Source: Asterochloris sp. CNOR1
Taxonomy: Eukaryota > Chlorophyta > Trebouxiophyceae > Trebouxiales > Trebouxiaceae
Length of the DNA stretch: 64,000 nt
Reading direction: 5' to 3'
Assembly: GCA_963969365.1 (NCBI GenBank)
Contig: OZ017762.1
Span: 620,001 to 684,000 of the forward strand
Shown here piece by piece: positions 124 through 61,700 of this stretch; position 1 is the stretch's first letter, and every line of letters begins with the position of its first letter. The notes beneath the pieces were generated by a model. The model saw nothing but the letters and a program-made list of their open reading frames with translations. It ran no database searches and was not told the DNA's origin. Position numbers and translations under genes: made by a program.

Positions 124-1974
124 ATGGAGCTGGAGATCAAGGTGCAGGGCATGACCTGCAATGGCTGCACCAGCAGAGTGCAGGACACCCTCCAGGTGAA
201 GAAGCACATAAGCCTGTCTGCCAGCAGGCCACCATGCAGGGCTCTTGGGCAGGCCAACATGTGAGACATCAGCAAGCCCTGGTCAGCAAGCAGGGATCGC
301 ACTGACATTGGCAATCCACAGAATTTTTGGCAAAGCTGCTCTTAAGCGGGCCCATCAGAACTTCTGGGGGCCCACCATGGGCACGTCAGAATTCCTGATG
401 AGCTGTTACAGGGTCCAGCTCAAGCACAGCCCAGCTGTGTATCTGACCTGCTGCAGGGGGTTGAGCGAGAGCTGAGCTTTTCAATGCGCTTTATGCAGAA
501 CAAGGCTTCCATGCTGGTTTGTCTCTGTACTGCAGGCCATGGTGTTGCCATGTCAGAGCAGCTCAGAGGCCATTTGACATGCCACAACAATTCAGCACTG
601 CACCATGCTTGTCTGAGGACTGGATGGCAGCTCTGAAGCAACAAGGCATCATCTCAGCACCTGGTGGTGATGTGGCATGACGACCCAGCGAGATGCCCAG
701 TATCTTATGGCAGGGCATGGGAGGTGTTGGCAAGGCAGTGCCGTAGCAGCAGACAACCGATTCTACATGAAGCCACACCCTGCTTGTGATGCTGCTGCAG
801 GACAGGGTGGAAGCATTGGACTGAGCAGGCCCAAGCGTTCCCATGCCCTTTCAGCCAGGCAGCTCAATCAGATTTGACCAAATGGGTTCCTGGGCTGCTT
901 CAGGGCATGGATGGTGTTGGCAAGGTGGAGGTCAGCCTCGCCACAGGCGTCGTTAGCCTGGAGGTCATTGCGGAGGACCCCATGGACGCTGCATTTGTGC
1001 AGGTGAGCCAGCGTGCAGCAGTGCTGTTGCTGGTCTCAGGCTCAGAGCTTTTGTATGAGCCTCAGGTGTGCTGTCAATGTGTGCAATGGCATGAGCGACA
1101 GGTCAGTGAGGGAGAGGGCTCTGCGCCTCGGCACACGCCTGTGTATCATTAGGGAAGCTGTCGGGCAGGGTCTTGTGCTGCATTTGTGCAGATCGGTTTG
1201 CAGCAGTGCTGGGGCTCCAATGGTTGAGGCTGCATCAGCCTGGATCACAAGGTGGTCGAAGGGGGGGGGCTTTAGGGAAATGCAGGGCACAGTAGGATGC
1301 TGCCTTGGCGCAGGGGAGCTTGCAGCACTGCTGCCGCTCGGATGCTCAGTGCATGTACTGATGTGAGGCCCCGGGTGGTGCTCAGTATTTACAATGGCTC
1401 GAGGTACAGGGTGCTGCAGGTAGGTCATTGCGCCTCTGCAGCTGTCTGTGTTACTAAGGTCCTGGAGGGCTGCAAGACATGCGACCCATACACTTCATGC
1501 CTGCAAGGGAGCTCATGCGGCTCACAGTGACCAGAGGAACTGCAGGTTGGTGTGGCCCTGAAACTCCTTGGTCCTGGATCTGTATCAGCCAAGTAGACAA
1601 AGCTGATGCTGCTGGTGCCATGTGCTGCCTTTCCCCTGGCAAGGAACGCTTCAGTGGAAAGGTAGCTTGAGAAGGAGATCACTTGGGCTGCTGAGTATGT
1701 GGGGCAGGGCAAGCTTCCTGTATATCGTGCTGCCGGTGCCCTCAAACAGCTGCATGGCCAGTCAGGGAAGCCCCTAAGCTGCTGGCATGCCACTGATGTT
1801 GCAGCAGACACTGGTTGAGCCCTGCAGGCACTCAACATTCCACTGTGCCGCTGTCCTCGATTCTTCTGCATTCACTGGCTGCAGATGCCTCGCCTGGTGG
1901 AAGCCATCAGGGGCCTGGGGTTTGATGCCAAGGCACACTTTGAGGATATGGGTTGGGAGGCAGCCAGCTTGTAG
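124..1974 (+). CDS. HMA-domain copper chaperone-like protein
   Basis: Three exons (124-195, 904-1002, 1885-1974), all joined in phase 0, give an 86-residue protein that is almost entirely one heavy-metal-associated domain. The metal site MTCNGC is at residues 10-15, followed by the usual helix, the GVGKVEVSL strand at about 27-35, and the GLGFDAK strand near the end. Soluble Atx1/CCH-type proteins with this fold carry Cu(I) to P-type ATPases; the length fits a stand-alone chaperone rather than an ATPase fragment. The ATG at 124 is the first in frame; no targeting peptide is visible, so a cytosolic place is inferred. Two TGTAA elements (1990-1994, 2087-2091), the usual green-algal polyadenylation signal, follow the stop. 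The middle intron holds a decayed copy of the start of exon 2. Confidence 0.85.
711..740 (+). repeat. Decayed copy of HMA exon 2 start
   Basis: About 30 bases match the acceptor plus first codons of HMA exon 2 (901-930), including the AG and the GGTGTTGGCAAGG core, 190 bp upstream of the real one. It diverges after that and is not open in the HMA frame. Confidence 0.7.
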
Positions 1975-2297
1975 TTTGAGCAGGACATCTGTAAGCTTCT
2001 TTCTGCCACACCTTGTACGGCTGCTGTATTTCATCATCATTTTGGTTTCATTCATCTTCTGAGGCTGCCAAGCTAAGCAGCATGAATGTAAGCAGACGCT
2101 AGCATTGGTTCCCCTTGCCAAGTGCTGTGAGCCACAGACCTCAATAGAGAAGCCCTCTCCCACGGGACCCACTGCAGCCACTTCAACTTAGGGGCATGTG
2201 GCTGGTAGATCAGATGCTTTTGTCCTTCAGTAGGATTAAGTTCGAAGGGGCATTCATGACCTGAACTTTAAAAGTTGTCTGACACTTGCTGAAAGCA
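1975..2297. other. Intergenic, HMA to cap methyltransferase
   Basis: Short spacer between two plus-strand genes. It holds the two TGTAA elements downstream of the HMA stop and the presumed promoter of the next gene; no TATA-like box or other element stands out. Confidence 0.6.
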
Positions 2298-5200
2298 ATG
2301 GATCACCTGGAACGGGCGAAGATTCTGTATGATCAGCATGCGAACAAATACAAAAGCTCACAGGAGGTCAGCCATGGCCATGCCAGAACCAGGGCTGCGC
2401 ACTGATGCAGTATGGGCCCTTCACCTTCGAACTCCTCATCTGCCATAAGTGCAGGCACAGCTTGCACGGAAGGGGGGCAGTGCTTACCCTCTCAAGGCAT
2501 TCCACAACAATATCAAGCGCAGGCTCATTGAGCAGTGAGCTGAAGCAGCCTTCTGAAGCATGTGCTGCTGTCTCCACACCTCCAGCAGCAGCTGTCTGTA
2601 CCCCTCATGGGAGAGGGTCTTCGCAAGACTGCATGCAGGAGCAGCATGGTGCTGTCACTCCAAGCCACTGCACTCTCATGCATGGCATGTGCTGCAGGTT
2701 TGCCCGTAATGCTGGGAGGCTGCTGGACCTTGCCTGTGGTCGTGGCGGTGACATTCTGAAATGGCTGGACTGCCAGGTAAGCTGAGGTGAGGCTATCCAT
2801 GCTGCTGCCCTCAGCAAGGAGGGGGGCTCAGCAGGTCAAAAGTGAAGGCCTGGCTTGCAGCGGTGGTAGGACAACAGCAGCAGGTGCTGATATGCTGGAC
2901 TACCTGGTGCGCCTGTACCGCCAAAGTTGCCTTGCATCTTGCCTTCCGAAACGCAGTCATCTGAAATGACCGATACAACATCGCATAATGCAAAGTGAAC
3001 GCAAAGCTGCAGTCCCTGACACCAGGCCAAACACCCGCCCAAATTGCAGTGCTGGGATGCGCCTTGTTTTGAAGCAGAAGCCATGTCGGTCAGGATGGGC
3101 CTGTTCATCGATGCTTGGCCCTCAAGTTCATGGCTTTGCGGTGGCTGCATGAGCTCACGGGCAGCGCCCTCTGCACAGGCGCATCAGCACCAAGGTGCCA
3201 GTGCGTTGCATCTCCTGCTCATGGCAAGGGAAGGGGATGGGCCCTCTCCTCTGGCTTCAGGGACATCTCTGTGAGTCATCAGGCGTCGCGTCGTCCCACA
3301 AGCCAGACTCCACCCTGGCCGGCTGCACACAGGCGATGTGAAGCCTGTTGAGTTGTCCAGTGGAGATATCTGGGAGGCTTGCAGCCGCCCCCAGAGGGAG
3401 CTGCAAGAGGGGAGGGCAGCCAGATTCCCTGCAGCCCAGGCTGCACCCTGCCTGGCTGCAGGTGGGCTATGTGAAGGGCATTGACCTGTCTCCAGGGGAG
3501 ATAGTGGAGGCTCGCAAGCGCTTTCAGGAGCAGGCAGCCAAGCGCAGAGGTCAGTGCAAGGGGCCTGAGCAGCAGAGATTGTGGCTGCGGGTACTGACAC
3601 CTCCTGATCATGCTTGCTGACTGCGCGCAAGTCACGGCTGGCACTGCCTAGGATGCCCTGCACACGCACTTGGAGCTCTCAGCCTGCTGGGGCCGGGGAC
3701 ATTGCTGGGCGCAAGCAGGAGCAGTCCGGGGTGGGTGTGCATGCAGGCTGCAGAGGGTTTCTCAAGGGTTGGCTGCCTGCACCTTTGGGAGCATGGCTGC
3801 AGGTGTGCTGTGTGCAGACTGCAGGGGCCGGCCTGCGGGGCTGGGCCTTGGTGGGATGCCTGCTTGCTCTTCTCTGTCACACACAACCAACTGTCAGGCC
3901 TGCGGCCTGCATGGCTGCCTCATGCACCAACCCCCCTGCCAAGCTGCTGCACTTCCTTTGAAGGTGCTGCCATCCTGGTTGTATTGTATTGTCTGAAGGC
4001 TGCATTCTGGCTTTCAGCCCTGCAGGGCAGTCTCTTGCTGCCAACCACGCATCATGTGCACGGTGCCCAGACAGGAGCCCTACAGCAGAGCGCTACTGGT
4101 TAGTACTCAGCGTTTTCCTGTCTGTGCTGCAGTGCGCCAGTGCTATGAGTTTGAGCAGTCGTCCACTCTGGGCACAGCAGAGCACCCCAACAAGACCGGC
4201 CTGTTTGACGTGGTGACCTGCATGTTTGCACTCCACTACTTCTTCGCCGACGAGCAGACCCTGAAGACCTTCCTGCACAACGTCTCCGTCAACCTCAAGC
4301 CTGGTGCGCACCTGAGCTTGCCCAAAGCTCTCTATGCATTGCTTGAGGAGAGGGCCTCCCCCGTCGCTGCTCAGCACACCTTGCACTGCCAAGTGAGCAG
4401 CAGAGGCTGCAAACAGTCCTTGGCATTCTTTTGTTGTTGTACAGTATGTCACTGCTGGCTCAGCACCTGCTTGCCCAATAGGTCCTTAGCTGAGATTGCC
4501 ATACCTCTTTGCACTTTCTGCCTGAGCGGCCCTACAGCTTGGTAGTCCCTTCCTCGCCCTCAGTTCTTTGTCCTGCTGGGTCTGCCTCTTGCCCACTTCC
4601 CCTTCTGCTTCACTGTGTGCAGCTGGCTGCATGGTGCCCTGGGGCTCTCCGACCTTGGCGGCAGTGGCATACGTGAATTGCGTGACTCCTCTCTGCTGCA
4701 CTGCCTGCCGCTGGCTGCGCAGCCCTGACTTTCCCTGACTTTGCTGACGTCATTGCACGCATTTTGTCGGAGGGGGAGCCCTGCAGGGCTGGTGTGGACT
4801 GGTGTTGCAAGCATGGTGATGGCCATTAATATGGCTATGCGGCGCCCTTCATGGGTTTACAGCTCTGCCATGTGCAGGCGGCTTCTTCTTTGGGACTGTG
4901 CCGGATGGGAAGAGGGTGAACTTAGTCATGCAGACGGCAGGGACCTTCCCAAGGTGAGCCCAGTGGGCAACGCTGGTGATGAAAGTAGCCGCTTCCCGTT
5001 CTTCTTCATAAGTAGCAGATCCAGTGTGCACACTGACGGTTTGGGCACCAGCAGCAGGGCTGCTGCCCACTTCAGAAGCCAGACTCGCAACAGAGCATTG
5101 ATATCAACAGGCCATGCCAAGCACTTGAGACCAACTTTACACATGTACAGTACACAATTTAGGGTCGACAGAGGCCCGGGTACCAGCCACCGACACAGGA

Positions 5201-7278
5201 AGCTTCCTGCGCTGCGCAGGTTTCAAGGCGAGCTTCTGTCAATCCAGGCACGCTGGCAGGGAGCTGCCAAGCCCTTTGGCTCTGCCTACAGTATGGGCAT
5301 TGGGGATACTGTGACTGAAGGTGACTGCATGTCCACCTGTGAGCTGGACTCGTCACGGCCAACGCCATGTTGCACGTGTCGGCTTGATGTGCCTGTCTCA
5401 GGAGGAGGCTGTATGCGTTGGGGACGTCCACCGCGCAGGTGACTGCTTGACTCTCTGCGCTCTGTATTGAGCCCTCATGCAGGCTTTGTGCAAACATCAG
5501 GGCAGTCTGAGCAGGGCTGCGCTGGGCTGCCACCCATCTCTGCCAGGGCTGCAGCATTGTCTGCTGTCCTCAGCCCCGCTGGTCTCAAGGCTCTGCCAAC
5601 TGTGCTTCCAACTGCAGCTGCCCCTTGAGAGGCCGCCCTGCCACTGCAGTCTGCCTGGCTGGATGCTTGGTCCAGGCTGCCGCGTGCTCCACGGCTGAGC
5701 TCCTCTCCATGTGGAATACGCTATAGCCTGCACTAGCCTCTGTTGCTTGTGCAGGCTATAGCGCATTCCACACTCTGTCCATGCCTACAGTTGTCTGCTG
5801 CTGGTGCTGGTTGAAGTGCCATACACAACAGATGCCCCCTCTGCAGTCATGTACCCCTGATGCAGGGCTGCAGCTGATGCAGACTTAACACTGTCCCTTG
5901 CAGTTTCTCTGCAGCTGGCACTGGACGCAGCGCAGCGAAAAACCTTTCTTGTTGAAAAGACTTCCGCACCCAGTTCCACACCCTGCAGGTCACAACGAAG
6001 ACGAGGCAGCTGGCTCTTATGAGTTTTTGGTGTACTGGACCATCCTGCAGGCAGTGGCAGCTGAAGTGGGCTTGGTGCCTGTCACAGACTGGGGCCGAGG
6101 CCCAGAGCTGATGTCTTCATTTGAGACGGTGAGCACCTCTCAAAGGCACTTGAATGTGCACACACAAGGCTGGTCATGTTTGTGCGGCAGGTAGGGCATG
6201 CGATCTGCGCCAGTGTGTTGATTTGTCTGCTCAGCCTTACAAGTCTTGACATTTACCTGCACCACCTTCAGCTGCTGTGTGCTATGCACACCTGTGGTGC
6301 AGCACCGTTCCAGACTTTGAAGAGCCCATACTTGCAGTAATCTGCTGGCGGTGCAAATTGCCATGCAGCGCTGATTGCGTCACTCCGCCCAGTGTTTCCT
6401 CGAGCGCAGCTTGGTGATGGACCTTCTGTGCTCAGCATAAGCTCCAAACAGGGCCAAATTCTGATCAGACCTTTGCTGCATGAAAGGCGCATCATCCAGT
6501 GTTGCTTCAGCTGCCCTGCTTTGTGACTCTCAATGTGCCTGTCGATTTTTCCCTGCTTGCTCTACGTCTACAGGCAGACAACAACAAGGGATTCAGGCAC
6601 TTCAACCCCTCCTTCAAGGGTAGCGACCCAAGCCTTGAGACCGCCAGCCGCATCAATGCTGCCTTTGTCTTTCAGAAGCAGGGAGCCGCCTCTGAGCACC
6701 TGCCAGTCAAGGCCGCAGGTACAGTCGGCGAGGCTTGGTACAGGGTTGGGGTTTTGTCTTCCAGGAAACGTCAGCCTGTCCTGGTGCTACTGGGCCTTTG
6801 CCAATTTCTATGAGGGCTGCAGCTGTGGCCTCCCTTTGTGTGCTCTCGCAGGGGGAGCTGGCAGATGTCAAAAGCATGCCCTGAGGCCACACCTGCATTT
6901 CTGTGGCTTCAAAGACCCACCAGCTTCTTGGCATGGCTGTGTTTGCGGTAACTGTTGTATGACGTGGCTTACTGCTCCTGTATGCTGCTTCAAGCTTGCA
7001 CCTGTCTTGACAGGCGCTTGTCACCTGTAAGTTGCAGCTGTCAGCCCGTGTGCCCGTGGCAGCCACCTGCCAGTGCCCCACTCCATATCTCATATGGTAC
7101 TGCAGGATCTGTGTCAACAGCGTTCAGGCAGCAGAAGCGAGCACGGGACCCCTCAGCTGAGCAGGCAGGCCAGCCGCCGGCAAAGACGGCAGCACCCAGC
7201 AAGTATGGACTGCAGGCTGCCCAGTCAGCCTACTCCTGGCTGGATGAGGAGGATGCAGACGACAACTACTTCAGTTGA
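2298..7278 (+). CDS. mRNA cap guanine-N7 methyltransferase
   Basis: Ten exons (2298-2366, 2497-2534, 2698-2776, 3462-3549, 4133-4303, 4878-4953, 5220-5320, 5989-6128, 6574-6718, 7106-7278) join with matching phases into a 359-residue protein. This nuclear enzyme methylates the N7 of the 5' cap guanine using S-adenosylmethionine. SAM motif I is LDLACGRGGDILKW (about residues 45-58), then YVKGIDLS, then FDVVTCMFALHYFF, and GGGFFFGTVPDGKRV; the order and spacing match Abd1/RNMT. The C-terminal 55 residues are a basic then acidic tail (KRARD, DEEDADDNYFS), probably a nuclear signal, absent from the catalytic core. There is no triphosphatase or guanylyltransferase domain, so it is a stand-alone methyltransferase of the animal/plant type. 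Intron 3 contains a long decayed copy of exon 4 and intron 7 a strong hairpin. Confidence 0.92.
3304..3405 (+). repeat. Decayed copy of cap methyltransferase exon 4
   Basis: This intronic stretch aligns along about 100 bases with the acceptor region and exon 4 at 3438-3545 (shared blocks such as GATGTGAAG, TGTCCAGTGGAGAT versus TGTCTCCAGGGGAGAT, GAGGCT..GCA). The period is about 135 bp. It is out of frame relative to the gene. Confidence 0.75.
5711..5771. repeat. 23-bp inverted repeat hairpin in intron 7
   Basis: Arms 5711-5733 and 5749-5771 are reverse complements over 23 bp with one mismatch, separated by a 15-nt loop. In a minus-strand transcript the single mismatch becomes a G-U pair. 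It lies 390 bp after exon 7 of the cap methyltransferase gene and far from its acceptor. It may be a foldback MITE remnant or a small-RNA precursor; the sequence alone does not decide. Confidence 0.85.
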
Positions 7279-7304
7279 CATGCAGACGACAACTAGTTCA
7301 GTTG
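7254..7304 (+). repeat. 27-bp duplication across the stop codon
   Basis: The last eight codons of the cap methyltransferase (DADDNYFS) and the stop are repeated immediately downstream at a 27-bp period with few changes. The second copy is in the 3' UTR. Confidence 0.85.
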
Positions 7305-7762
7305 GCAAGCCCCTGTGACTAGGTGTGTCGCTGGAGGGGCTGTTCAGTGCACAGTTCCGTCTTCGTTCTTGTGAGACTCAGGAGGTCCCCAGACTGCCCC
7401 CAGTCTGCCAGTCAGGTGCATGTGGCTGGCTAGATTGGCACCCAGAGGAATTGATCAACCACACTGTCAGGACAGCAAGCTGGCAGGAGAGTGGCATGAC
7501 CTGCGCGATCATGAAGACCAGCTCCTCCTTACATATCAAATGGCGTGTACTGACTCAGGCGGCACTGCACAACAAATTTTGAAACGAATCTTACTTGAAC
7601 GGACTCTTGATGTGCAGCTTGAAAACACTATCTTCACAGCTATTCAGTGCTGACTGCCAGCATTTCGTCAAATTTGACATGGGCCAATTGGGCCTCGTCT
7701 GTGCTCCAAGACTTGCAATTTAATCATGAGGAAAAGTCACGAGATGTGTGGCCTTGATGACT
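7279..7762. other. Convergent intergenic region
   Basis: Holds the 3' ends of the plus-strand cap methyltransferase and the minus-strand reductase. A TGTAA on the minus strand (about 7529-7533) is a plausible polyadenylation signal for the reductase. Nothing else recognised. Confidence 0.6.
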
Positions 7763-10700
7763 TCACCAGTTCTCAAAAGGTGCACCAACAAACCCACTGA
7801 TCTTGTCAGTCTCACGCTCCAGTGCGAGAACCTCATCACTACTCATGCGCCATCCAAATCCACCTGTGACAATATCAAACAAAAGCTCACATAAGCTGAG
7901 ATTGCTCAAGTCAGGCTGTGACTGACCTGGAACACGGCTGGACACTCACCTGCTGACTCCTGAGCCTGCCGTGCGCTCTTGGCCCCTGGAATGGGGACGG
8001 CCCCCTTGCAGATGCACCAGTTGATGGCAACCTGCAGACAACAGGGGCTCAAGACATTGGCGGGAGTGGTGAGACATGACAGGGTAGACCCCAAGGCTTT
8101 GCAGCAAGCCTGAGGCAAGTGCAGCCCCTGCAGCCGCTGCGTGAGGCACCTGTGCATGTCCCTTGATGTCATATGCTCAGCCAGCGTCACATTCACTGAC
8201 CCCAGTTGGACAGCAACCACATGTCAAAACATCAGCGGCCCGGGCAGGAGGTCGCTGGTGTGGGCTAACCCACCGTCTTAAATGCAGCCAGCTCACGGCA
8301 AGAGCCAGTGTCTCATGGGGCCAGCACCCTCACCTGTGCAGGAGTCTTGCCCCCGTGTGCAGAGCCGATGTCGCGCATCAGCCCCAGCAGGGGTTGCACC
8401 TCATCCACTCTCTGGGCATTAATGGCAATGCCCCTGGCGCCAGAGGGGAGGTTGTCCTTGTTGTACTTGCCTGCATGCACAGCATGCAACCTACTGTCAC
8501 CGCCTTGCTCTGCCAGCGTGCCACCAGGTTATCAGGGGCTTGGCGCAAGACATCTCCAAAGGTTGAGCATGTCCAGCACCAGAGAGCTACCGCCAAGGGC
8601 GTGAGCAGTGGCAAGCTGATCTGCCTGAAGCGGTGTGTCGACCAGTTGCTGGGCTGCCAGGCAGCCGGTGGCTGAGGCAGAAGCTGTGCGAACAGGGCCT
8701 GTGCCAGCAAGACATCATCAATCACCATCGCCCTCCTGCCACTTCATACAGGACTCAGCGAGTGAGAGGAGGCGTCAAGCAGGGCCTGTGACACCAAGGA
8801 TTAAGCATAAGGGAGCTGTCTTGCGACGCACACAGGATGTAGCAGTCACCCGTCAGCAACCCCTGGGTCGGTATTGGACCAGCGTCAGGAGTAAGCCAGC
8901 AACCCAGATTGCCTTCACGCTTCAAAGATGGACTCCAGGCAGTGACTTTGAGGCTGTCACGTGTCAGCATTCCCTGGCCCGGCACATAGCGAGTTGCCAG
9001 GGTCAGTCCAGCACCTCAGATGCAGACCCCAGCAGGCAAGATCAGTGCAGTCACCTGTCAGCAGGCCCTGGGCCAGTGGGGAGTACGCGATCAGGGTGGT
9101 CCCGCCCTCCTCGCAGGCCTTCTTTACCCCATTGCGCTCCGGGTTCCTGTACAGCAGGCTGTACTGCACCTGGTTGGAGGCCAGGGGGATGCCGCGGTCC
9201 TGCACAGAGTTGCAAGCAACACCTCAGCAGGGGGCACCAGAGTCCTGTGCTGCATGGCAGCTTGCCAGTGAGCTGGGGTGTGGCCGAGCTCACAACATGC
9301 ATGCAGCTTGCCCTGGCATGGAGCGACGTTCAGGATGTCAAGTGTGCGATGATCAGCTTTCAAGATAGCAGAAGGACGCCCACACACATGCACTGCAACT
9401 GCTGTCCACTCAGAGATGCATCCTCTCCTCCTTGAGCCAGCAGAGAGTGACTGCACATCTGCAGCATGAACAGGCTGCATGCCACCCACCGAAAGGATCT
9501 TCTGTGCATCCCGGACCCTGTCAAGCTTGAAGTTGGAGACCCCAATGGCCTGAGTCAGCCCCTGGTCATGGCAGTCCCCCAGGCCCTCCACAAACTGGCG
9601 ATTAGAGAAGCCATTTGTGATGAACCCTGGCCAGTGCTGCTGGTAGAGGCCCAACTTCTCAATGCGCAGGCGCTCCAAGCTCTTCCTGCAAGCAGTGCAC
9701 AGGACTGGAGCTTGTCTCACGTCTTGATGCAGACGAGCTTTGCATGTGGGGTGGTTTTGGCTTTCATGAAACTGTGCGCGATGGCCAAAGCTCTCTGCAG
9801 GCAGACAGAAGGCAAGCAGGGCAGTGCTGCTGATTGCGACCCTGCTTTGCAGTGCAAAGGCGCCACAAGCTCTTCCTGCAGGCAACGGTGAAAGCAATCT
9901 CCTGTTGCAGGCAAGTTTGGTGAGTGGCTAAGAAGCCCAGCTGGTGGTGAAGCTGGGCCATTGCTGCTGCCGGAGGCCCTGCTCTTCAATGCGGAGGCGC
10001 TCTGATCTCTCCTGCAAGCAACTTGGTCAGACAACCAGGAACGTGCTCCTGGCAGTGAGAGGACCCTTTTTGCAGCTGGCCGCTGCACAAGGGGCCCAAG
10101 GCCCTGCTGCAGGGGAGGACAGCTCAACAGAATGTGAGCTGAGCGTATATACCACAGGTATGCTGGTGACTACAAGGGTGCCGACAGGGTGCCAGCTACA
10201 GCCTTTCTTGTACTTTGGGAGGCGGTTTGCCCCGGCCCTTCCTGCAGCTCGCTTCAGCAGTGGTGGGAAGCCTTGGTGTTGGCTCCTTGAAAGTGCTCAT
10301 ATTGCAGGCTCAAATCTAGAAGGGCAGTTGCCGTTGAGCCTTTCTGCTGGCAACGAGCAGGGTAGAAGAGAGTCAGAGCTGAGCTAGTCCGCATTGTGAT
10401 CTGACACTTCCCAGGAGGGAGTGCAGAAGGTGATCTACTGCAGCACATTTGTGCATCCAGGCTCTTCTGGCAGGCTGGGGACACAATCAGCCCTACAATG
10501 CCTTGTGACACCTCATAATCAGGCAATTCTGCAACACTAGAGAACTGCTTAGCCGTGCGGTATCACAAGCCGCTGCTTGGGGGCTGGGCTTGGAGTTGTG
10601 CTCCAAGCCAAGCCCAATGAGTTGAATGTCAAGCCACAGACAGGACACCGGACGCTGCGTGCTTACTTGCAGGCATCCACGACCGTGGAGCGCGTGAAGC

Positions 10701-12104
10701 GCCAGGGCAGAGGCGCAAACTTGGTGGCCACGACCACCTGGGTGCTGGTGTCCCTCATGAACTGAGACAGGTACTCTTCGCTGGCACCAAAGCCATATAC
10801 CTTCAGGCAGGTGTACCATCAATTTGCAAATTGTGATTGATAGCAACAGGAAGCTGGGCAAGGTCCACTGGCACCAAATCCATGCACCTGCACACACAGC
10901 CACTGTGTTGTATACCAACTGACGGAGTTGACAAGCCTGCCATTGAGGGCTGTTGCATCCCACCTCACCTGTGCACTGCCTCCCAGGCCTGCATGCACTG
11001 CTGGCTCGAGGTCATGGCAAACGCAGCTTGATCAGGCAGAAGCTGATGCAACCGTGTCCTGCTTGAAAACGCTTGCGAACGAGACAGGTCCCCATCTCTG
11101 GACCAAAGTCTTGGACCTCATGTCATGACCCGCGCATCTGAAGGCTGCTGCAACATTGCCCACATGCCCAAGTGCCGCAGCAACACAGGCAGTCGGGTGC
11201 TGGAGCACCCAGCAGGCAGTCACCCCACCGTCAGGGCGGCACCACAGGCCCTCCAGTTCACGTTGACACTTGCTTGCCTCTGCAGTGTCGATCAGGCTGA
11301 TACCGCTGTCCACCAGAGCTTTGTAGGCAGCAAAATTGTCACTGCGCTGGTTGCCAGGCTGCCCAGCTCCCCAGTACCCTGCAGTGACAGACGGGGCTGT
11401 GTTCAAGGCCTGCGCCTGCATCCTGCAGCATATGTTGAAGGGGGGCGGGGGGGTGGAGGGGGCACATGCCTGCACCAGATGGGACCTCTACACACCATCG
11501 CTGACATGCATGGGTGCAGATTTCATATGGGATTTGTGCAGCAAGACATTGTCGCAGGACCTCCAAACACTTGTTGCCCCACCTGAGTTGTCTCCCCAGG
11601 ACCAGGCACCTGCAGGCACAGCAGCAAGCTTGAGACTGACGTGCAAGTGCGCAGCACTGCACACACTGCTGTGACCAATAACAGGATGCCAGCTTGATGG
11701 CTGCTAGCTGTCGCACAGCCAGTACTGGCATCTTGGGCTGTGACAGCAATTGGCTTTGGCACAAGGTACAGCGCCAGGTGCTCCACCACAGCTCGGAGTT
11801 GATCTGTCGCACCTATGCCAATGGGCGTCACCATCAGGCCAGACTTTCCCAGCTCCACTGTCTCCTTGGGGCTGATGCCCACAGGCTTCACCTCACTAGC
11901 AGTGCCTGGGCTGCCGGCAGTGATCTGACTGGCTGCTGCCGGCCGGCTGGTCCTCGCCTCTGCTGCAGCTAAAGCACCTCCAGCTGTGAGGCCGAGGGCC
12001 TGCCGTCGGCTGAGAGAGCTATAGCATTCCAAGGTTGCACGCCTCTGGGAACAGCGCTGTAATTTTGCAGGTGGCAGGCCTATGCATCCCCAGCGTGCCT
12101 GCAT
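7763..12104 (-). CDS. Plastid aldo-keto reductase, At1g06690-like
   Basis: Eight exons (12104-11813, 11378-11278, 10800-10667, 9685-9490, 9199-9055, 8470-8334, 8031-7950, 7863-7763) give 395 residues with every phase matching. The core follows the plant plastid NADPH-dependent aldo-keto reductases found in plastoglobules: SLIDTAEVYG (catalytic Asp and Tyr), [14 protein letters not shown] (catalytic Lys), YQQHWPG (catalytic His), [28 protein letters not shown] and VPIPGAK. Substrate is unknown. The N-terminal 75 residues are a Ser/Ala/Arg-rich transit peptide that also holds [19 protein letters not shown], a twin-arginine-like signal. The upstream in-frame codon is GTG, so the ATG at 12104 is taken as start. 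Intron 2 begins with GC (GCAAGC). Introns 3 and 5 carry decayed copies of exon edges. The gene shares a 284-bp promoter region with the HDAC gene. Confidence 0.92.
8838..9075 (-). repeat. Three copies of the AKR exon 5 donor region
   Basis: The end of exon 5 and its donor (about 9049-9075) recur at about 8957-8980 and 8838-8870. On the plus strand the shared core is GTCAC-TGTCAGCA-CCCTGG. Spacing is about 95-115 bp and both extra copies are inside the intron. Confidence 0.7.
9596..10020 (-). repeat. Copies of the AKR exon 4 acceptor side
   Basis: The first 90 bases of exon 4 with its acceptor (9596-9690) recur at about 9790-9885 and 9920-10020. On the plus strand all three end in a GCGC-C-AAGCTCTTCCTGCA-like block, and the most distal also keeps AAGAAGCC and GGCCATTGCTGCTG-like blocks. 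All extra copies lie upstream of the real acceptor in the intron. Confidence 0.75.
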
Positions 12105-12388
12105 GGGACAGTGCTGACTCACTGACTGCAGATTGTGATCACATGGCTACCAGATTGACATGCATTGCATTCTGCGATCACAAGAGCATTTGGCCTAGTG
12201 AGCAGGCCACGCCTGCGCAGGCAATAAAACTCACTCAGATGCAGCTCTGCGAGCGCACTGGATCCTTACCTGGGCTTGCAGGGCTGAGCTGTGCATGCTG
12301 GCAAAGCAAAAATAGCGGGATACTAGTAGAAAGCAAGGTGAATGTGGGCCCATGAGGTGCGTCTGGCATTCGACTGCCTGATTGCAGC
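12105..12388. promoter_or_regulatory. Shared promoter, AKR and HDAC
   Basis: The two start codons (12104 minus, 12389 plus) are 284 bp apart and diverge, so both 5' UTRs and promoters must fit here. No clear TATA box on either side. Confidence 0.6.
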
Positions 12389-24592: not shown

Positions 24593-24960
24593 GGTGGGCA
24601 GACAGATAAATACGGCGACAGCAGCAGCCGCCGTGCCTCTGGGTCAGCTTTCGAGTACCGCAGTCGGCTTGGCTGTGTGCTGATACCCCATTCAAGCTCA
24701 AGAACCGCACACTGCTGCTAGCTTGCTGACACAGCACCCAGGGGCTGAAGTCCTCCTGCCCTAACTCAAGCTTCAAGCCAGCGATGCCGATCTACTTAGG
24801 TGTGAGCAGAGGCAAAGGTGGCTCTGTCAGCAGCAGCAGCCTGGCAGCCTGTGTATGTGGTATAGCAGGGCGAGGGTGGCATTGGCAGCACCCACAGCTT
24901 GACAGCCAGCCCAGGCAGGGCCAGCATGAGGTGCCTCATCCTGCCCCAGAGGCTGCTCAC

Positions 24961-34702: not shown

Positions 34703-41305
<6,603 letters not shown>

Positions 41306-48300: not shown

Positions 48301-51300
48301 GCCATAAAGATGCCAGGAAGCACTGCATTACCCGCACACCTGGGCCAGCAGCGTTGGAGGTGGGCAAGTTGCTGTTGCTCCGGCTCAGATTGGTTGTCTG
48401 CTGCCCGTGCAGGGCAAAGGCCTCATCACGCCAGTGCTCATTCATCTGCTGCAGCACTGGGGTGCCCTGGGCTGCCTCTAGCAGAGCTCTGCATGATCAG
48501 GAGCGGGAGACATTCACACATGCTGCAGCACTAGGCCGAGCATTGGTAACTGATGTAGAGACCAGGCTTTCATTCCATCTGCTGCAGTGCTGGAGCATCA
48601 GCGCTCTGTGCTTCTTCCAGCAGAGCACTGCATGGCAAACGGAGGACAACCGTGCAAGCGCCAGCAGTTGCACTGGGGCAGTATCACCTCCTCCAGCGGC
48701 AACTCCCACAGAGATGGGGCGGGGTGGGTTTGCAGGGGACACATGGCGTCATGCACGAGACGACCTAGCTTGAACTAAAGCAGCCTATTCCTGACAGGCA
48801 ATGCTCTGGAAAGCTGTGCCTTTCACTCTCAATGGAAGATCGCCTTTGCAGAATGGGTGGTGCGCTGCAGACCCACAAGTCGTGCGTCATGACGTCCTGC
48901 CTTCCACGTACGCACGAGAGGCAGCTCGTCCTGCCACATAAGGAGAGCCAACCCCTGTACAATCTGATCCTGCCTGGGCAGATAGCCAAACTTCATGCAA
49001 GTCCTACAGCATGCATGTCCTCATCTCTTCACCTGCTTGTGGCAGAGAGCTCATCCTGCTCCACAGGAACCACCTCTGGCGCAGCATGCTGATTGCCATT
49101 GCCGTGCCCATGCCCATGGCTGTGGCGGTGGGCACTTAGATCATCGTGGCTGTGCTTGTGCGGCGTGCGCTGAGTGCCGAGAATGCCGTTAAGTACGGCA
49201 CGCTCGTAGTAGTCAGCAAAGGTCACATCGCCTGTCCAGGTGAACAGGTAGCGTGCCAGCTTGAGCATGTTGTACTGGGTGCAGGTCTCCTCAGTGGCTC
49301 GGCCATTGTCAGTCTGCAACAGTAAAGCTGTGGGCTACGGAATAGCCGCTGTCAGCCTAAAGGGGCCGCTGTCAGCCTGCACCAGGCAGGTTCCTGACAA
49401 TGTCACACATGGCACAGCACTTTCAGCCCACAGGTGATGCACCCTTAGAGTACGATGCTGTGCGCAGCCAGTATCAGCATGTATGGCAAAGCGGTCCTGG
49501 AGAAGTCCTGCCTGTCTTAGCACCATGTGAAGCTATACGGTCTGCCATGCACTGAGCGCCTGACTGCACGGTGCCGTTGCCCTCCATCAGAGGCCAATCC
49601 CTTGAGTGAACATGCCACGGGCTGCACAAGGATTCAGCACATGCCTCTGGATCCTGTTAGCTGCATGCTGTGGCTGCTGGCATCTCCCTGGCAGGAACAT
49701 ATCACCCACCTTCACCAGTGCCTCCCCAGTAGCGTCAGGCAGGCCCCAGAACTCCCACATGTTGTTGCCACCTGCAGGTAGTACAGTAGGGAATCTAGCA
49801 TGGGGGTCTGTGCTATCAACCATTGTGTGCAGGGCAGCTGCAGTTGTGATCATCAGCATGCCTCTGCTGTCTGCTGCTCGAGCCCCGACTTGGGGACTCT
49901 TTCTTGGGTGTGCTATGATGCAAATTGCAAGCCTGCTCATCTGCCAGCATGAGGAGGTGAGCTCTTGGAAGAGGAGTGAAGGTGCAGGGTGCTTGGCAAC
50001 AAAATCCGTGAAGCCGCTAGCATGGTAGGCTTGCCAGTTGGAAAGGAGTGGTGGCTGGTCACGACTTCGTAGAATGTCACAACTGCCTTCAGAGCATCTG
50101 GGTCGGCGGTCTTCTCGTAGTCTGCTGCATAGCTGTTGACCTACAAGGAAAGGTCCTGCTGTAACTGAGGTCTCATCAGGAAGTTGCATTTCAGTGTGTG
50201 GCTTATGATGCATGCTAAGACACTGGGGGTGGCCAAGCTGCTGTCCCTGATTGCATTCAGAAGCAGTCAGTGCTGCTTATGAATGAGGCACAACCCTGCA
50301 TGTGCAGGAACTGGCCTTGCTTTTGGGCCCTCACAGGAATTGCTGAATCTCAGGCGATGTAGAAACAGTGCCTACCTGGGCCAGGTAGGTGTTGGCATGG
50401 AGCCCAGCCAGTGGGTCATTGCCGGCGACAAGGGGCTCAAAAAAGTCAGGACGGACAAAAAGGCGGGCAAGTCTGCAGGCAGTCACAGCATGAGCTGTCA
50501 GTGCAATAGCCACTGGGAAGCCGCCATGCAGTGCTGCGACTGTATCGTTCAGCGGCAGCGCATGCTGAGGAGCAAAGCCACGCGGCACCCTTGCAGCTGT
50601 TGTGGGCGGGCACTCAAGACAGTGGGGTGTTGAAAAAGTTTGTGCTTGCAAGGGCTGCACCCTTCTGGAGTTGGTAGCGCCATTCACATTTTAATGGCTG
50701 CTGGGCAAACAGCAAGGCTGTGAGTGGATTTCTGTTATGCCTGCCTCAAGCAGAAGTTCTGACTGGGGCAGCCAGCCTGCACTCAGCTGGGCCCGAGACA
50801 GCATGAGGCAGCTGTCATGCCGTGATCACTGAGTCGTATACAGCAGGGGTGTGAGGCAGGCATACCCTGGTGTGTCTTTTTGACTTACCTCAAGTGAGTG
50901 GGATCATTTGTGATGCCATACAGGTTCTGTAGCATCTCACTCATGCCGCCAAATTCAGTGGCCAGCATAGCTTGCCAGTGAGCTGTGCCGTTCACTTCCA
51001 GCGTCAGCTGTATCCTCTGCTCAAAGTAGCGGGTCATGTCCAGAACCTGCACCAACAGCCAGCAAGCATCAGCCTGTGCAGTGAACCTCCGCTTCATATG
51101 GGATCTCTAACACGCAGAGTCCGCCTTGGGCACAGGCTTGAGCTGTGGCCACCTGCGCCAGACATGCCTCATCTGGTTGTGGGCTGACCAGACAACAGCA
51201 ATCAAGCCCTGCTTACGCAGTGTTCGAGGCATCAGGACGTGATAAAAAGCTGCAGTATCCCCAGCTGATCCTGGGCCACACAAGTAAGCCGAGATGGCTG

Positions 51301-53577: not shown

Positions 53578-55254
53578 TTATTGGCGCCGCCGGAGCAGCA
53601 GAAAGATGATGAACAGCACGCCAACGGCCCCTGCAAAGTACATGGCCATCTGCTTCCTGCGGGGCTCCTGAAACACCTGTAAGCCAGAAGACCGTGCAGA
53701 TGAGAGCCCATAGCGATGTCAGACATCAGCAGGACTGCACATTGCGGCTTTGGTGTGCAGTGCACATGCTGAGAGCATGGTGGGAATGCCACGAGCAACA
53801 TGGCTGGTGGGTCCACGAGCCAGGTACTCTTCACAGCATCTCACACCTTCTTGAACTTGCTGACGGCTGCCCCCAAGCCCATGCGGGCGCTGCCCATGTC
53901 TGCGGACTGCAGGCCAGCATGGACACAGCATGTGGAACGTCCTCTGACTGTGCATGCTGAAGTTGATGAGCCCACCAAGTCGGGGCTGGCAGTGTTAGGC
54001 AGCCCACCTGAAGCCCTTCACCTAGAACGCTAGATGGCAGCTGTGGACAGTGAGCGTGCTGATACCAGCCAGTACCAGCAGCCGTGGCCACTAAACAGGC
54101 AGGGTGCCAGCCTCTCCTGAGCTCTGGGCATGGATGACCCCAAGCTAAACACTAGGCATCCCTGGCATGCAGTCCAGCATGCACATAGCAGCCAGGGCCA
54201 CCAGCCAGCCCTGCTCAGAGGTCCAGGCATCTGAGAGCCCTGGCCAAGCACAGCGAAGTCACAGCTGATGGCAATGCGTGATGCATTCCAATGGACTGCC
54301 ACCATCTTCAGCGTCGAGCCACCAGTTGTTTGAGCAGGGAGTCATGGCTCCCACAGACACTTGCTTGGCAGGATTCTGCCCCTAAGGCTCTGCTGCCAAG
54401 AAGCTGCGCAAGCAGCAGCAGCCACTGACAGCAGTGGCACCGATGAGGCAGGATCAACATCAAGGGTAGCTCAAGGTCTCACCATGGTGTCCAAAGCACG
54501 GTGGCTCCGGTCAACCTCATCCTTGATGCTGGCTGTCACCTGCGGGGCATGCACAGAGCTTATTAGATGCACCTTTTTGACTCACAATCACAAGCCTGCC
54601 TTTGCTCAGGTGGCCCTGTTGAAGTTGAGCATGCAGCGGCGCACCCAGCACATGTTTGGCACCTGCAGGGCACACACAGAGCTCGTCCGTACAATTGAAG
54701 GCATGCGGTGGCTGCAGGGCGCAGGGTCTGCTGTTGGTCATCGCCTGGAGCCAGGTGACAGTCAGCAGGGGAATTGCTCTAATTGCGCCTCCTGTACAGC
54801 AAGGGAGATTGCACATCCCGGATGCTGGCTGTCATCTGCAGGGCTCACACAGCGCTAGATGTTGAAAGCTAGGGCATGTTGATGGCTCACAAGCACAGGG
54901 CTGCCTGTCACCTGCAGGTCACTCAACACACTATAACTGACAGTTGTGCATCCCTGGTGGTGGCTGTCAGCAGCAAGGCATGTACTTGGCTTGCAAGCTC
55001 AGGGATGGCAGGTTCACGGATGCCCTGCAGCCTTGTGTGGGAGGGATGCCTGCAGTCACAAGGTATGATGTGTCAAACAGCGCCAGCAGAACAGAGAGTT
55101 TCTCAAGTCATTGCACTGGCCATGCTCTTGGGCTTCAGATCAGCCCCCAGCTCACCTGTCTCAGCAGGCTGACCCTGTCCCCCAGATTGCCAATGTTCTG
55201 GTCATTCTGCCTCTCTAGGGACTCAGGATCCACACTTGAGGACGCTGCCTGGCC
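53578..55254 (-). CDS. Bet1-like Qc-SNARE
   Basis: Four phase-0 exons (55254-55156, 54539-54483, 53906-53847, 53676-53578) encode the SNARE motif and tail anchor: ESLERQNDQNIGNLGDRVSLLRQ, VTASIKDEVDRSHRALDTM, ADMGSARMGLGAAVSKFKKV, FQEPRRKQMAMYFAGAVGVLFIIFLLLRRRQ and a stop. Heptad spacing, the central Gln region and the C-terminal span followed by a few basic residues match Bet1/Sft1 proteins of ER-Golgi or intra-Golgi transport. The N-terminal exon before GQAASSSVDP was not found; it should lie between 55255 and about 55700. The intron before exon 2 carries several copies of the acceptor region. Confidence 0.85.
54531..54930 (-). repeat. Copies of a SNARE exon acceptor
   Basis: The plus-strand string GGCTGTCACCTGCGGGGCAT at the acceptor (54531-54550) recurs as TTTGGCACCTGCAGGGCACA (about 54655), GGCTGTCATCTGCAGGGCTC (about 54827-54846) and GCCTGTCACCTGCAGGTCAC (about 54902-54921), with related ACACAGAGCT or ACACAGCGCT blocks after three of them. 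Confidence 0.85.
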
Positions 55255-55793
55255 CTGCAGATGGCGATATCATGAGTGAAACAAGGTGCCTGTTCAGGAA
55301 CAGCCCCTTGATGCTCATGGACACCAAAGCAGTGCACTCTGCATGTCCCAGTGCACAGACACTCACAGACTTGGGCTGCTGGCCTGATGCATTGCCAAAA
55401 AGAGGTCTTCTGTCCCTGCAGCAGAATCAAGGACAGGCCATTCGACAGTGTTCAGGCAGTTGACATCTTGATGCCTCTGCCTGACCTGGCTGCAGGCTCC
55501 TTCATGCTCCCCCGGTACCTTCCGTCAAATACACCCTTCAATGGTCAGAAGCTTTTGGGCTGGCTGTGGCGCTCTCAGTTGGCCTGGATCTGCAGCAGAT
55601 TGCATTGAGCTCATTCATGAATCCAAGAAAGCAAGGAGGTCAACCCCCTCCGTAAGCTGATGCACCCCGGTAAACACAACACAGTGTGGCAGAGGCGGGC
55701 TGCCTGCTTGCCAGTGGTAGGTTCACCGCTTCGACAGGTCCATTCGAATGTAGCATTGCGGCATCCTCAGGATGCTTTGCCTGCAGGAGGGGC
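55255..55793. other. Head-to-head region, SNARE and ERF gene
   Basis: Must contain the missing SNARE 5' exon and both promoters. No confident exon. An open frame leading into the ERF gene starts at a GTG near 55686, so part of this may be transcribed as its 5' UTR. Confidence 0.4.
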
Positions 55794-58700: not shown

Positions 58701-61700
58701 ACCCAGCTGCCTCCCCGGCAGCCCCAGCAGCAGCAGGGACCTGCTGGAGCACAGGGACAGGACTGCAGCCCACACAGCCACCTGCTGCAAGGCGGGGTGC
58801 GCACTCTCCGGGAGCCCATCGGCTGCAGGAGTCCAGCCAGCAGCAGAGCGGGGAGTGGGCCTGCCCCACGGGGCCAGCCCGTTGAAGCTCAGGAACGGCC
58901 TGCGCTGCTGCAGCCCCTCGATGGGGCTCAGGCCGGGGTCCAGCAGCAGGCCTGGCACCAGCTGCTGCCCCGTATTCGGACCAGCAGCAGAGGTCCAGGC
59001 TCTGGCCTGGGGCAGCAGGCAGGCAGGGATTCGCCTCTGCAGCTGCCCACTCCTTGCCAGGCGACGGAGCCGTCTGCTGCCATGTCAAGTGCGGCGCTGG
59101 ACAGGGCTGCGCACCCGCAGCCGCTCTTCTCGGGGCAGCAGCCACCGCCAGCCTGGCAGAGCTTTGTGCCAGACAGCCCAGCGGGAAGGGCGCGGGGAGC
59201 TAAGGCAAAGGGTCGGCGGGGAACAGCCTCTAGCAGTGGCCTCATTGCTGGCAGCAGCAGCGGCAGCGACAGTGGCACCACTCGTGCCGCGCTGGTTAGA
59301 GGTCTGGTCTCGTCGACCCGGTGGCCCCGCATGGTGCGCCCTGCGGACCCTATGTGTGTGCCTGCAACACATGATACAAGGCTGCGTGTCAAGGCAGCAA
59401 GATGCGCCCCGCAGGCCTTGCTGTGAACCAAAATGCTATGGTCCTGGACGCGATTCAGAATTTGCACACGTGTGATGACCCCAAATGCTTTCACAGCCTG
59501 GGAGCGCTTTTGCCTGTATGCCGTGCAGCCGTGTGGCGGTTTGCATGCCCCAGAAACAGCCAGGACCGCAGCGCAATATGCAGCAGGTGCAGCATCAGAA
59601 CTGCCTGCATGGTGTTGGGCTGGTGAGCCCTGCTTCCTGTCTGACTGCAGGAGGGACCCACGCCAGCCCTGCTGTGCGCAACTCTGCGCGCCAAGGCCAA
59701 GGCAGACCTGCTCCCTGCCAGCCCACAGGCAGCCCCTGCCCACCAGGAGATGGGCAGCCCAGACGCTGATGCTGCGTTGGAGGCAGCCACCGCCCTGCCA
59801 AGGCGCCGCTTGAAGGCACTGGCGGACCTGCTGGACGTGGGTGCGCCCGGCAAGTGCAGGGAGGAGGCAGACAAGCTGAGGGCGGCCGCTGCGCAGCTGG
59901 CGGGAGGCAGCTGTGGAGCGAGCCGGCCGCTGGTCATGCTGGGGCGCAAGGCAGGGCAGCGTTCGGAGCAGCAGACCGAGGTGACCCTTTGCTGGGGCTG
60001 GCAGCTTGCTGGCTGTCACGGCTGCACTGGGCGTCCTGTTATCAGGAGGCAGTTCTAGGGTCTTTGACCTGGTCATTGGTCAGGCTGGGATGCAGGGCAG
60101 GGCAGTGCAGCAGCACTCAGTGCAGCACTTCTTGCCTGCCAGGAAGGAGTGGAAAGGCAGATGGCCCAATCAGGTGAATGTGTGTGTGTCTGTCCTGCAG
60201 CATGAGGAGCAGGCAGTCCCACAGCAGCAACCAGCCAGCAAGGCAGCTGCACCCCCTCTGCACCCGAACAGGGAGATAGCAGCGCGGCTGGCATTGGCCA
60301 AGGCACGGGATGAGGCAGCCACCAAGCGCTGCCCTGAGGAGCAGGGAGGCTACCTGGGGGTGAGGCGGCGCCCCTGGGGGACGTGGGTGGCGGAGATCAC
60401 CGTCGCTGGCACCTGCAGGTGGGCCCAGGTGGCTACGTTGGGACCAGGTCAGCCCTGGGCAGCCACGTGACCTGCCGCTCCTGCAGTGTGCAGCTATACC
60501 AGGTCAGCAGAGGCGCTGGAATGCTCCCAAGTGTGACATGCTGGCCCTGCCTCCCTGCAGGCTGGTTGGGACCTTTGGCTCCGCTAAGGCAGCAGCCCAA
60601 GCCTACGATGCCCAGGCCAAGCAGCTGTGGGGCAGCACGGCCCAGGTCAACTTCACTGGGCAGCCCTTTGCCATCAAGAGCGCCCCCTCGTGGTCCCCCA
60701 GCCAGCCCCCCGGCATCGCTGCCAGCAGGGCCCCTGGGAGGAGCAGCAGCCAGGGAGCTGCGTGGGCCTCTGACAGCTCTGAGGAGCCAGAGACCTCTGG
60801 GAGCTCGGGGGCTGAACCTGACTCGGAGGTCTCAGATGGGGATGTGCAGGGCAGCAGCAGGACTGCGGCTGTGGTTCAGGAACAGCCCTTGGTAAGCAAG
60901 GCTGGGATGAAACGGTCGTGTGTGGGCAGGTGCTGCCTGTGAGGGGTGGTGGGTGTGCTGCCTCAGAACAAACCCCTGAGTTCCAGCAGGCTGCACCATA
61001 GCAGACTGCAGATGAGAGATCCAGTGCAGTTGCGGATCTTGCCTCAGCTGATCCAGTCAGGGACTTGATCTGCTAGGCTTTGCAAAGGCTGCTGGTCTGC
61101 TCTGCCCAGGCCTGCTCCTTATGGTCAACACGAACTGTCATTCTGGACTGCAACAACAGCTGGGACGCAAGTGACCCCTGTAGTCTGCGCCTCTGCTCCG
61201 CCCAGGGACTGCTCTTCGTGTGTGCAATGATCAAGCTTCCCCTCTGGATTGCTGCAGCGCCGGAGACGCAACTGACTCCTGCACCGCACCCTTGCCACCC
61301 AGTGCTGCCCAGCACTGCTCCTTGAGTTCGGACTTGCACACTCCCCTGCTGGACTGCTGCAGGGGCTGAAATGCAAGCGCCCTCTGCGGACGGCGCTCCA
61401 GGCGCCATCTGCCAAGCGCAGGCGGGGTCGCCACACCAGTGTGCCCAAGGTAGCAGCTGCAGTGAGAGCATCGGCAGCAGCAGCGCCGCGGCGGCCCTCG
61501 TCTGCTGTTGCTCAGGTCCTCATGGTAGCCGCAGCTGTGGATGCCAGGCAGCAGCCGAAGGCTGTGGCTGGCCTGGGCCCCAGTCAGGAGGTCTTCACTG
61601 GCCGCCTGCAGGCTCAGCCCGGGCCCAGAACCTGTAGGGACGGCAGATTTGCCCCTCTGCCTGAGCTTGTAGAACTCCGCCCGCACCCTGCTGCTGAGGC

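Follow-up and report, generated by a model that had tools for sequence, protein, structure and literature searches.

The closest described relatives of the pattern reported here are duplications within genes and dispersed intron-creating elements; the pattern itself, in which introns hold decayed copies of the edge of the adjoining exon, was analysed in a 64,000-nucleotide stretch of the green alga Asterochloris sp. CNOR1 (hereafter the window; contig C17:620001-684000 of a genome of 56.4 Mb in 21 contigs). Internal gene duplication in eukaryotes was reportedly studied by Gao and Lynch in 2009 for the exons it duplicates and the introns it creates, and that work is said not to have dealt with intron growth recorded in decayed exon edges. 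Like such internal duplication, the process in the alga is local and widespread within genes. In the potato RdRp gene a single tandem genomic duplication spans the end of an intron and the start of the next exon (Ma, Lan and Niu 2016, PMC4974935), and according to an extract of that paper, an intronic tandem duplication of 83 bp does not alter the gene structure. As far as this extract goes, the potato gene is one recent case that made a new intron, whereas in the alga old copies stand at about 40% of testable junctions and the intron was lengthened. The AGGT type of intron gain (Rogers 1989; Hellsten et al. 2011), as outlined in that extract (PMC4974935), resembles the algal case in that a tandem duplication falls within a gene and the protein is unchanged through splicing; it predicts, however, donor and acceptor junctions that are alike in register, which those of the alga are not (n=371). 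For novel intron positions in Drosophila, tandem duplication of exonic sequence at splice-site-like motifs has been considered, and tandem duplication is a proposed route to such positions (Lehmann et al. 2010, PMC2891723); in the excerpted text of that paper the new positions concern few genes and show no relevant intron-exon sequence conservation, whereas algal exon edges match their own intron. Introners, to judge from an excerpt of PMC9860276, are likewise a genome-wide process shaping introns, in several eukaryotes, but they are dispersed copies of one intron-creating transposable element, while the exon edges of the alga match their own introns and not others. Among open-access titles and the beginnings of abstracts, none described exon-edge copies across a genome, with precedents in Chlorella NC64A being possible, and neither the excerpts of the Coccomyxa genome paper (PMC3446292) nor those of an intron review (PMC3488318) mention them. 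Local duplication is known; apparently new are its level, its trace at about four in ten testable junctions and a profile of age and position that the simple model discussed below does not fit.

Gene models came from a purpose-written gene finder, a two-strand hidden semi-Markov model whose retraining drew on the window and loci L001-L023; it gave 399 introns with a median of 357 bp, 101 of them in the window. Beyond the window the sample was 180 kb, taken as 10 kb from position 300001 on each of contigs C1-C18, a fixed coordinate and not a random draw. For exons of at least 90 nt (shorter ones were skipped), 40 nt of exon edge were compared with the adjacent intron at a score of at least 14, random intron segments of the same genome serving as the null. 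Of 316 exon heads, 39 matched their own upstream intron where 1.6 would be expected; of 303 exon tails, 47 matched their own downstream intron, against an expectation of 1.9. The controls stayed near background: opposite edges matched in 3/316 (tail against upstream intron) and 2/303 (head against downstream intron), exon middles in 2/316 upstream and 3/303 downstream, reverse complements of the two positive classes in 1/316 and 3/303, and their mirror sequences in 0/316 and 1/303. By Fisher's exact test the difference between head and tail in the upstream intron reaches 2e-9 and that between tail and head in the downstream intron 7e-13. These counts bear out what a first-pass annotation of the window had read from the letters alone, namely that introns hold decayed copies of the adjacent exon edge, acceptor-side copies upstream of the exon and donor-side copies downstream. 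That annotation had also named an outcome that would refute it, one dispersed repeat family behind the copies; since other introns of the same genome form the null, such a family is excluded for the bulk of the copies, and a 251 bp donor region of the histone deacetylase (HDAC) gene matched only itself in a genome-wide search that skipped very common words.

The share of junctions above chance was estimated from the p-value distribution for 60 exon bases, with exons of at least 120 nt and introns of at least 150 bp. The two edge classes give 0.40 (n=224) and 0.41 (n=222), so that a trace is left at about four in ten testable junctions. The corresponding values are -0.04 and 0.04 when opposite edges are used and 0.01-0.12 with reverse complements. 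A more inclusive listing (80 exon nt against the adjacent intron, score at least 14) contains 191 copies in 120 of the 399 introns, and in the window 50 copies in 31 of the 101 introns, spread over all nine predicted transcript chunks. Its chance level is about 19.7/399 introns overall and 4.8/101 in the window, and its reverse-complement level 26/399 and 8/101; because of these levels roughly a fifth of the listed introns may be false, mainly those with scores of 14-15. The first-pass figure of eleven genes is plausible as an approximate number: the gene finder merged some adjoining genes, at least two window chunks among them, which prevents an exact count, and its first exons are unreliable. 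Copies lie at a median of 171 bp from the junction on the acceptor side (10-90%: 87-371) and 176 bp on the donor side (89-347), and one junction carries at least five. Within the intron, acceptor-type copies are displaced toward the acceptor (median relative position 0.68) and donor-type copies toward the donor (0.35). Duplicate arms, the inclusive listing counted in, are detectable over 18,179 of 155,348 intron bases (11.7%), and introns with copies are longer (median 482 vs 302 bp), although longer introns also offer more search space.

A scan that uses no annotation scored ungapped similarity on every diagonal (score at least 16, spacing 30-400 bp). It found 79 direct repeats in the window and 242 in the 180 kb sample, against 3 and 6 inverted repeats and none in either for a mirror control that keeps local composition. 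All 18 sampled loci were positive, with 2-27 direct matches each, while 49.7 kb of E. coli, the sole outside DNA compared and a bacterial one, gave 4 direct, 0 inverted and 0 mirror matches. The signal of local duplication is therefore strong and almost purely of the same orientation, with spacings mostly of 50-250 bp and typically about 110. This orientation, the restriction to the adjacent edge and the greater length of copy-bearing introns support the earlier proposal that introns here grow by recurrent local duplication.

To see where the duplications fall, local pairs were collapsed (score at least 15, spacing 30-500 bp), giving 395 pairs: 164 intron-intron, 156 exon-intron, 46 exon-exon, 18 intergenic and 11 mixed with intergenic DNA. 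Within single exons the spacing is a multiple of three in 30 of 31 pairs (p=1e-13), with no such enrichment among exon-intron (45/156) or intron-intron pairs (56/164); therefore the duplications strike broadly and are then filtered by reading frame. Head-to-tail examples include pairs with spacing/match length of 130/128, 63/68 and 96/95, and in the window arrays of 79 bp in three units and 189 bp in two. The first-pass annotation had treated the junction as the unit of duplication. Given similar duplications in introns, in intergenic DNA and, in frame, in exons, this need not be so, as selection together with splicing would leave junction copies as the survivors that can be seen; a two- to threefold preference for junctions is mildly favoured by one of the fits discussed below.

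Mismatches between copy and exon are spread nearly evenly over the codon positions (acceptor 0.20/0.20/0.24; donor 0.19/0.18/0.30), which is what a non-coding copy of a constrained exon would show. The further claim that copies keep the splice site better than the codons was not borne out in a register test, in which the splice dinucleotide positions were excluded from copy detection: at acceptors the AG positions match at 0.48/0.48 vs a mean of 0.56 for the first six exon bases (n=25), and at donors the GT positions at 0.60/0.50 vs 0.59 for the last six (n=30), both samples being small; intron positions 10-25 bases upstream of acceptors match at about 0.32. Counts of splice sites in gapped copies (27/62 AG, 18/67 GT) were not used, the exon comparison class being biased low by construction. 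At junctions with several copies, these are related almost star-like through the exon, with a copy-copy identity of 0.673 vs 0.643 expected for independent decay (74 pairs); the nearest copy scores higher in 21/39 and the farthest in 14/39, which is too weak for an order of age. Past the end of the match, 24% of 134 exon-intron pairs regain similarity on the side of the junction (intron) and 9% on the exon-deep side, with controls below 5%, and anchored extension into the intron exceeds the 95th percentile of the control in 39% of 188 copies. A 3% similarity beyond the exon-deep end was set aside, as local alignments end there by construction. This decay pattern fits a junction-spanning unit, the exon half of which is preserved because the real exon is constrained.

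It is rather probable, in our opinion, that short local direct duplications arise throughout the genes of this nuclear genome and that selection decides which of them survive. Duplications inside an exon would survive almost only when the reading frame is kept, while those within an intron or spanning one exon-intron junction would be tolerated, because splicing can still use the site beside the intact exon. A copy not used by splicing would be removed with the intron and would then decay, and since constraint acts on the retained exon, the exon-edge half of the unit could still be recognised when duplicates of intron sequence alone had long faded. Introns would lengthen through local duplication, with decayed exon edges as the most durable trace, and the junction copies look like the tolerated and longest-visible subset of local duplications. 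We infer that most units are head-to-tail tandem duplications spanning the junction and that the decoy sites are ignored by splicing; the duplications themselves would come from ordinary replication or break-repair errors.

Several results weigh against this explanation, above all in its simplest form of constant rate and uniform placement. With matched labels, a comparison that leaves intergenic (29) and exon-exon (49) pairs out of the ratio, exon-intron to intron-intron pairs stand at 177/140 = 1.26 vs 0.62-0.68 simulated. Young junction copies (<10% divergent) are 4/82 vs 29-34% simulated, and re-annotation of in-silico duplications, which mislabelled about a third of young junction copies, explains only part of this; intron-intron pairs fit better (14/51 young vs 33-38% predicted). 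The copies reach a median of 37 nt into the exon, 75% of them no more than 52 nt, against 53 and 81 in simulation. Flanks of short matches on the junction side are similar at 0.32, 0.17, 0.28, 0.22 and 0.20 by divergence class, and a low-indel tandem simulation is higher in every class (0.76, 0.62, 0.46, 0.30 and 0.26). For the match lengths of intron-intron pairs to agree with tandem units, 0.3-0.6 indels per substitution are needed; in exon-edge alignments there are at least 0.087 gaps per mismatch, and matches are not longer at wider spacings (Spearman -0.31 and -0.19). At the ends of coding sequences, 1/21 stop edges and 0/13 start edges are copied, samples too small for generality there. 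Fits prefer a rate 5-8x higher before about 0.15-0.25 substitutions per site and improve further with a 2-3x junction excess; they take one pair per junction or intron, and their best values lie at the edge of the grid (8x, 3x). The constant-rate, uniform-placement model therefore fails, with too many old junction copies, too few young ones and too short an exon reach. A simulation in which simulated and real pairs were labelled differently had given a ratio of 0.97 vs 0.95 (0.75-1.03 over five settings); it was rejected, as the agreement is gone with matched labels. Under uniform placement the ratio is 0.61 at present intron lengths and 1.52 with introns halved, and shorter introns at the time of older events would therefore give an excess without targeting. 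The fit would be better with a higher past rate, with ancestral introns shorter than today's or with a junction preference of 2-3x. Simulated duplications accepted over about 1.2 substitutions per site add 161-178 kb vs 155 kb of present intron, an order of magnitude only because the model is rejected in detail.

The excess of junction pairs over uniform placement could also mean that exon-intron boundaries are duplicated preferentially, for example through transcription- or splicing-linked breaks, the junction then being the unit. This would agree with the gain of about 5-7 log units that the best fits, with their 2-3x junction factor, show over variable-rate uniform placement, and with an exon reach within about 60 nt of the junction in 149/177. 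However, duplications inside introns are about as numerous and in-frame ones occur in exons, few junction copies are young, the fit rests on intron lengths as they are today, to which the ratio is sensitive as just described, and the collapse to one pair per junction or intron itself favours junction pairs; we therefore regard targeting as unlikely. A broader form, in which splice junctions would be preferred sites of short duplication, introns would grow outward from their boundaries, exon copies would stop near 60 nt since longer ones are recognised as exons, and decayed edges would be a dated record of growth, is a tentative possibility and still a doubtful one. Exon copies extending past 60 nt into the exon number 28/177 in the window and loci L006-L023, fewer than under the uniform model; such a limit would be expected if longer exon copies were read as pseudo-exons and selected against. 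Tandem duplication is the most likely form of the event, and its live rival is local copying of short patches, in which 20-60 nt around the junction would be copied to a place in the intron about 100-200 bp away, leaving a spacer and without a whole-interval tandem. Flank similarity below that of the low-indel simulation, match lengths that do not rise with spacing and the short exon reach would all suit such patches. On the other side, copying of exon middles, although they are a possible source of patches, stays at background level, extension into the intron is seen in 39% of copies, and there are full-length arrays. The orientation is almost only direct, unlike that of fold-back templated insertions, and we give patch copying a distinctly low probability.

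Selection could have kept the copies as decoy splice sites or splicing regulators, as the over-representation of old copies relative to a constant-rate neutral model might suggest; but splice dinucleotides are kept no better than neighbouring exon bases in the small samples of the register test, and the copies of multi-copy junctions diverge almost star-like, so this is very improbable. Still less credible is that the introns themselves were born by Rogers/Hellsten-type duplication of an exonic AGGT segment. It belongs to the same class of process, tandem duplication in genes, as the extract of PMC4974935 describes it, but donor and acceptor junctions of the same intron share 17.43 of 60 positions in register vs 17.45 in random pairs (n=371), a result that also gives no sign of the shift of introns that the first-pass annotation had thought possible, and acceptor-type copies lie toward the acceptor and donor-type copies toward the donor. 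Such gain is disfavoured for the bulk of introns, and old gains may be past detection. Chance, shared composition, a dispersed repeat family or assembly error have a negligible probability. TGC/CAG words are abundant in the genome and inflate matches made by eye, and chance alone would account for about 20 of the 120 introns listed; nevertheless this reading is refuted for the bulk of copies by composition-matched nulls from other introns and by the reverse-complement and mirror controls, while the HDAC junction region occurs at one genomic place and copies at about 75-85% identity are no assembly duplicates.

Lengthening of introns other than by transposon insertion is seldom visible, because intron sequence decays fast. 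Exon edges are a record of this growth, and because the constrained exon is a reference for old junction-spanning duplications, a single genome suffices to estimate their rate, size, age and position. The comparison of exon edges with their own introns, with its controls, needs only an annotated genome and is applicable to any eukaryote; applied to others, it would show whether the alga is exceptional or the signal has so far gone unmeasured. Cryptic copies of splice sites beside the real ones also matter for gene annotation and for alternative splicing.

The window copies are collected in Table 1. By Pfam, the genes of the window include those for an mRNA cap methyltransferase, HDAC, ribosomal protein L4, dihydrolipoamide dehydrogenase (LPD) and an aldo-keto reductase; the scan covered 6 of the 9 predicted proteins, one of them without a match. 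The gene finder was seeded with hand-read genes, 18 segments minus two in the wrong frame, training on long open reading frames having been dropped because of wrong-strand frames. It recovered 10 of the 11 hand-made exons of LPD, itself among the seeds. Assembled by hand, LPD has 11 exons and an uninterrupted protein of 502 residues, and listed copies, some weak, occur in 6 of its 10 introns. Among the best 120 of its 248 protein matches, the best full-length named relatives are green algae at about 70-73% identity, a metagenome protein reaches 78% over 88%, and the top-scoring match is a plant entry of 696 aa aligned over 43% only. Several genera among the best named matches are presumably Trebouxiophyceae.

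Table 1. Decayed exon-edge copies of the inclusive listing, and associated tandem repeats, in the window; single copies scoring 14-15 are uncertain
Feature	Copied segment	Gene	Position	Strand	Score and remarks
Acceptor-side copy	exon 904-925	HMA-domain gene	714..735	+	18, identity 0.91
Donor-side copy	exon end 988-1002		1177..1191	+	15, weak, identity 1.00 over 15 nt
Acceptor-side copy	exon 3465-3521	mRNA cap methyltransferase	3332..3388	+	21, identity 0.76
27-bp tandem duplication	across stop codon; coding edge copied outside coding sequence, no splice junction	cap methyltransferase	7253..7306	+	stop-edge score 18, 93% match
Acceptor-side copy 1	exon 9629-9685	aldo-keto reductase	9819..9875	-	29
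Acceptor-side copy 2	exon 9606-9683	aldo-keto reductase	9931..10010	-	36
Acceptor-side copy 3	exon 9607-9669	aldo-keto reductase	10267..10327	-	15, weak
Acceptor-side copy	exon 10781-10796	aldo-keto reductase	10868..10883	-	14, weak
Acceptor-side copy	exon 10759-10792	aldo-keto reductase	11077..11108	-	18
Acceptor-side copy	exon 14343-14390	HDAC	14180..14225	+	16
Donor-side copy	exon end 14610-14631	HDAC	14645..14666	+	16
Donor-side copy	exon 14589-14622	HDAC	14672..14705	+	18
Donor-side copy 1	exon 14876-15065	HDAC	15212..15234	+	17, identity 0.87
Donor-side copy 2	exon 14876-15065	HDAC	15345..15393	+	19
Donor-side copy 3	exon 14876-15065	HDAC	15455..15522	+	26
Donor-side copy 4	exon 14876-15065	HDAC	15601..15616	+	14, weak alone
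Acceptor-side copy	exon 16627-16683	HDAC	16424..16481	+	30
Donor-side copy	exon 17540-17592	HDAC	17644..17696	+	29
Acceptor-side copy	exon 18775-18854		18883..18963	-	34, identity 0.76
Acceptor-side copy	exon 20601-20632		20792..20820	-	14, weak
Acceptor-side copy	exon 21215-21256		21363..21405	-	17
Donor-side copy	exon end 21594-21615		21499..21520	-	14, weak
Donor-side copy	exon 22194-22246		21974..22026	-	23
Acceptor-side copy	exon 22309-22336		22409..22436	-	14, weak
Acceptor-side copy	exon 22320-22344		22529..22553	-	19
Acceptor-side copy	exon 22313-22351		22624..22662	-	21
Donor-side copy	exon 24390-24430		23877..23916	-	14, weak
Donor-side copy	exon 24389-24418		24058..24089	-	14, weak
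Donor-side copy	exon 24389-24441		24189..24241	-	24
Donor-side copy	exon end 25639-25656		25449..25466	-	18; within 189-bp tandem pair 25281-25656, TRF 84% match
Acceptor-side copy	exon 26686-26716		26774..26803	-	15, weak
Acceptor-side copy	exon 26689-26732		27089..27131	-	14, weak
Acceptor-side copy	exon 29796-29827		29989..30019	-	14, weak
Acceptor-side copy	exon 33787-33831	ribosomal L4	33673..33716	+	27
Acceptor-side copy	exon start 35815-35837	LPD	35649..35671	+	15, weak; exon hand-curated
Acceptor-side copy	exon 36660-36717	LPD	36326..36384	+	33, identity 0.81
79-bp tandem array x3	in intron of copy 36326..36384	LPD	36397..36635	+	TRF, 88% match
Acceptor-side copy	exon 38601-38635	LPD	38133..38167	+	23
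Acceptor-side copy	exon 38590-38627	LPD	38214..38251	+	15, weak
Acceptor-side copy	exon 38590-38608	LPD	38413..38431	+	15, weak
Donor-side copy	exon 39186-39212	LPD	39522..39549	+	16
Acceptor-side copy	exon 39992-40039	LPD	39845..39887	+	14, weak
Donor-side copy	exon 40101-40131	LPD	40272..40302	+	17
Donor-side copy	exon 40078-40132	LPD	40354..40406	+	16
Donor-side copy	exon 40768-40806	LPD	40958..40998	+	15, weak
Donor-side copy	exon 40781-40810	LPD	41047..41077	+	15, weak
Acceptor-side copy	exon 43229-43253		43313..43337	-	15, weak
Donor-side copy	exon 45931-46008		45704..45780	-	34, identity 0.74
Acceptor-side copy	exon 48438-48487		48570..48626	-	21
Acceptor-side copy	exon 54518-54538		54814..54834	-	17
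Second acceptor-side copy	exon 54518-54538		54949..54969	-	15, weak
Donor-side copy	exon 59903-59959	large gene (AP2-like segment, by eye only)	60045..60105	+	23

Two of the ten hand-curated LPD introns, introns 2 and 10 (donors 35125 and 40818), start with GC and not GT and are GC-AG introns. In-frame tandem repeats lie in coding exons at 27280-27525 and 56347-57181, with spacings of, for example, 75, 213, 81, 72 and 42 nt, so that two large genes encode repetitive protein segments. On contig C4 (L009:8500-9205) local duplications are densely clustered, with periods of 78, 96 and 130 bp at 74-94% match and a 96-bp repeat inside a predicted exon. An inverted repeat of ~25 bp, seen by eye at 5700-5780 in an intron of the cap methyltransferase gene, may represent a small hairpin element. 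Among repair genes, the genome has matches to DNA polymerase A family at two loci and to Ku at two, which say nothing on mechanism. The rbcL gene lies on contig C21:184242-185168, presumably the plastid genome.

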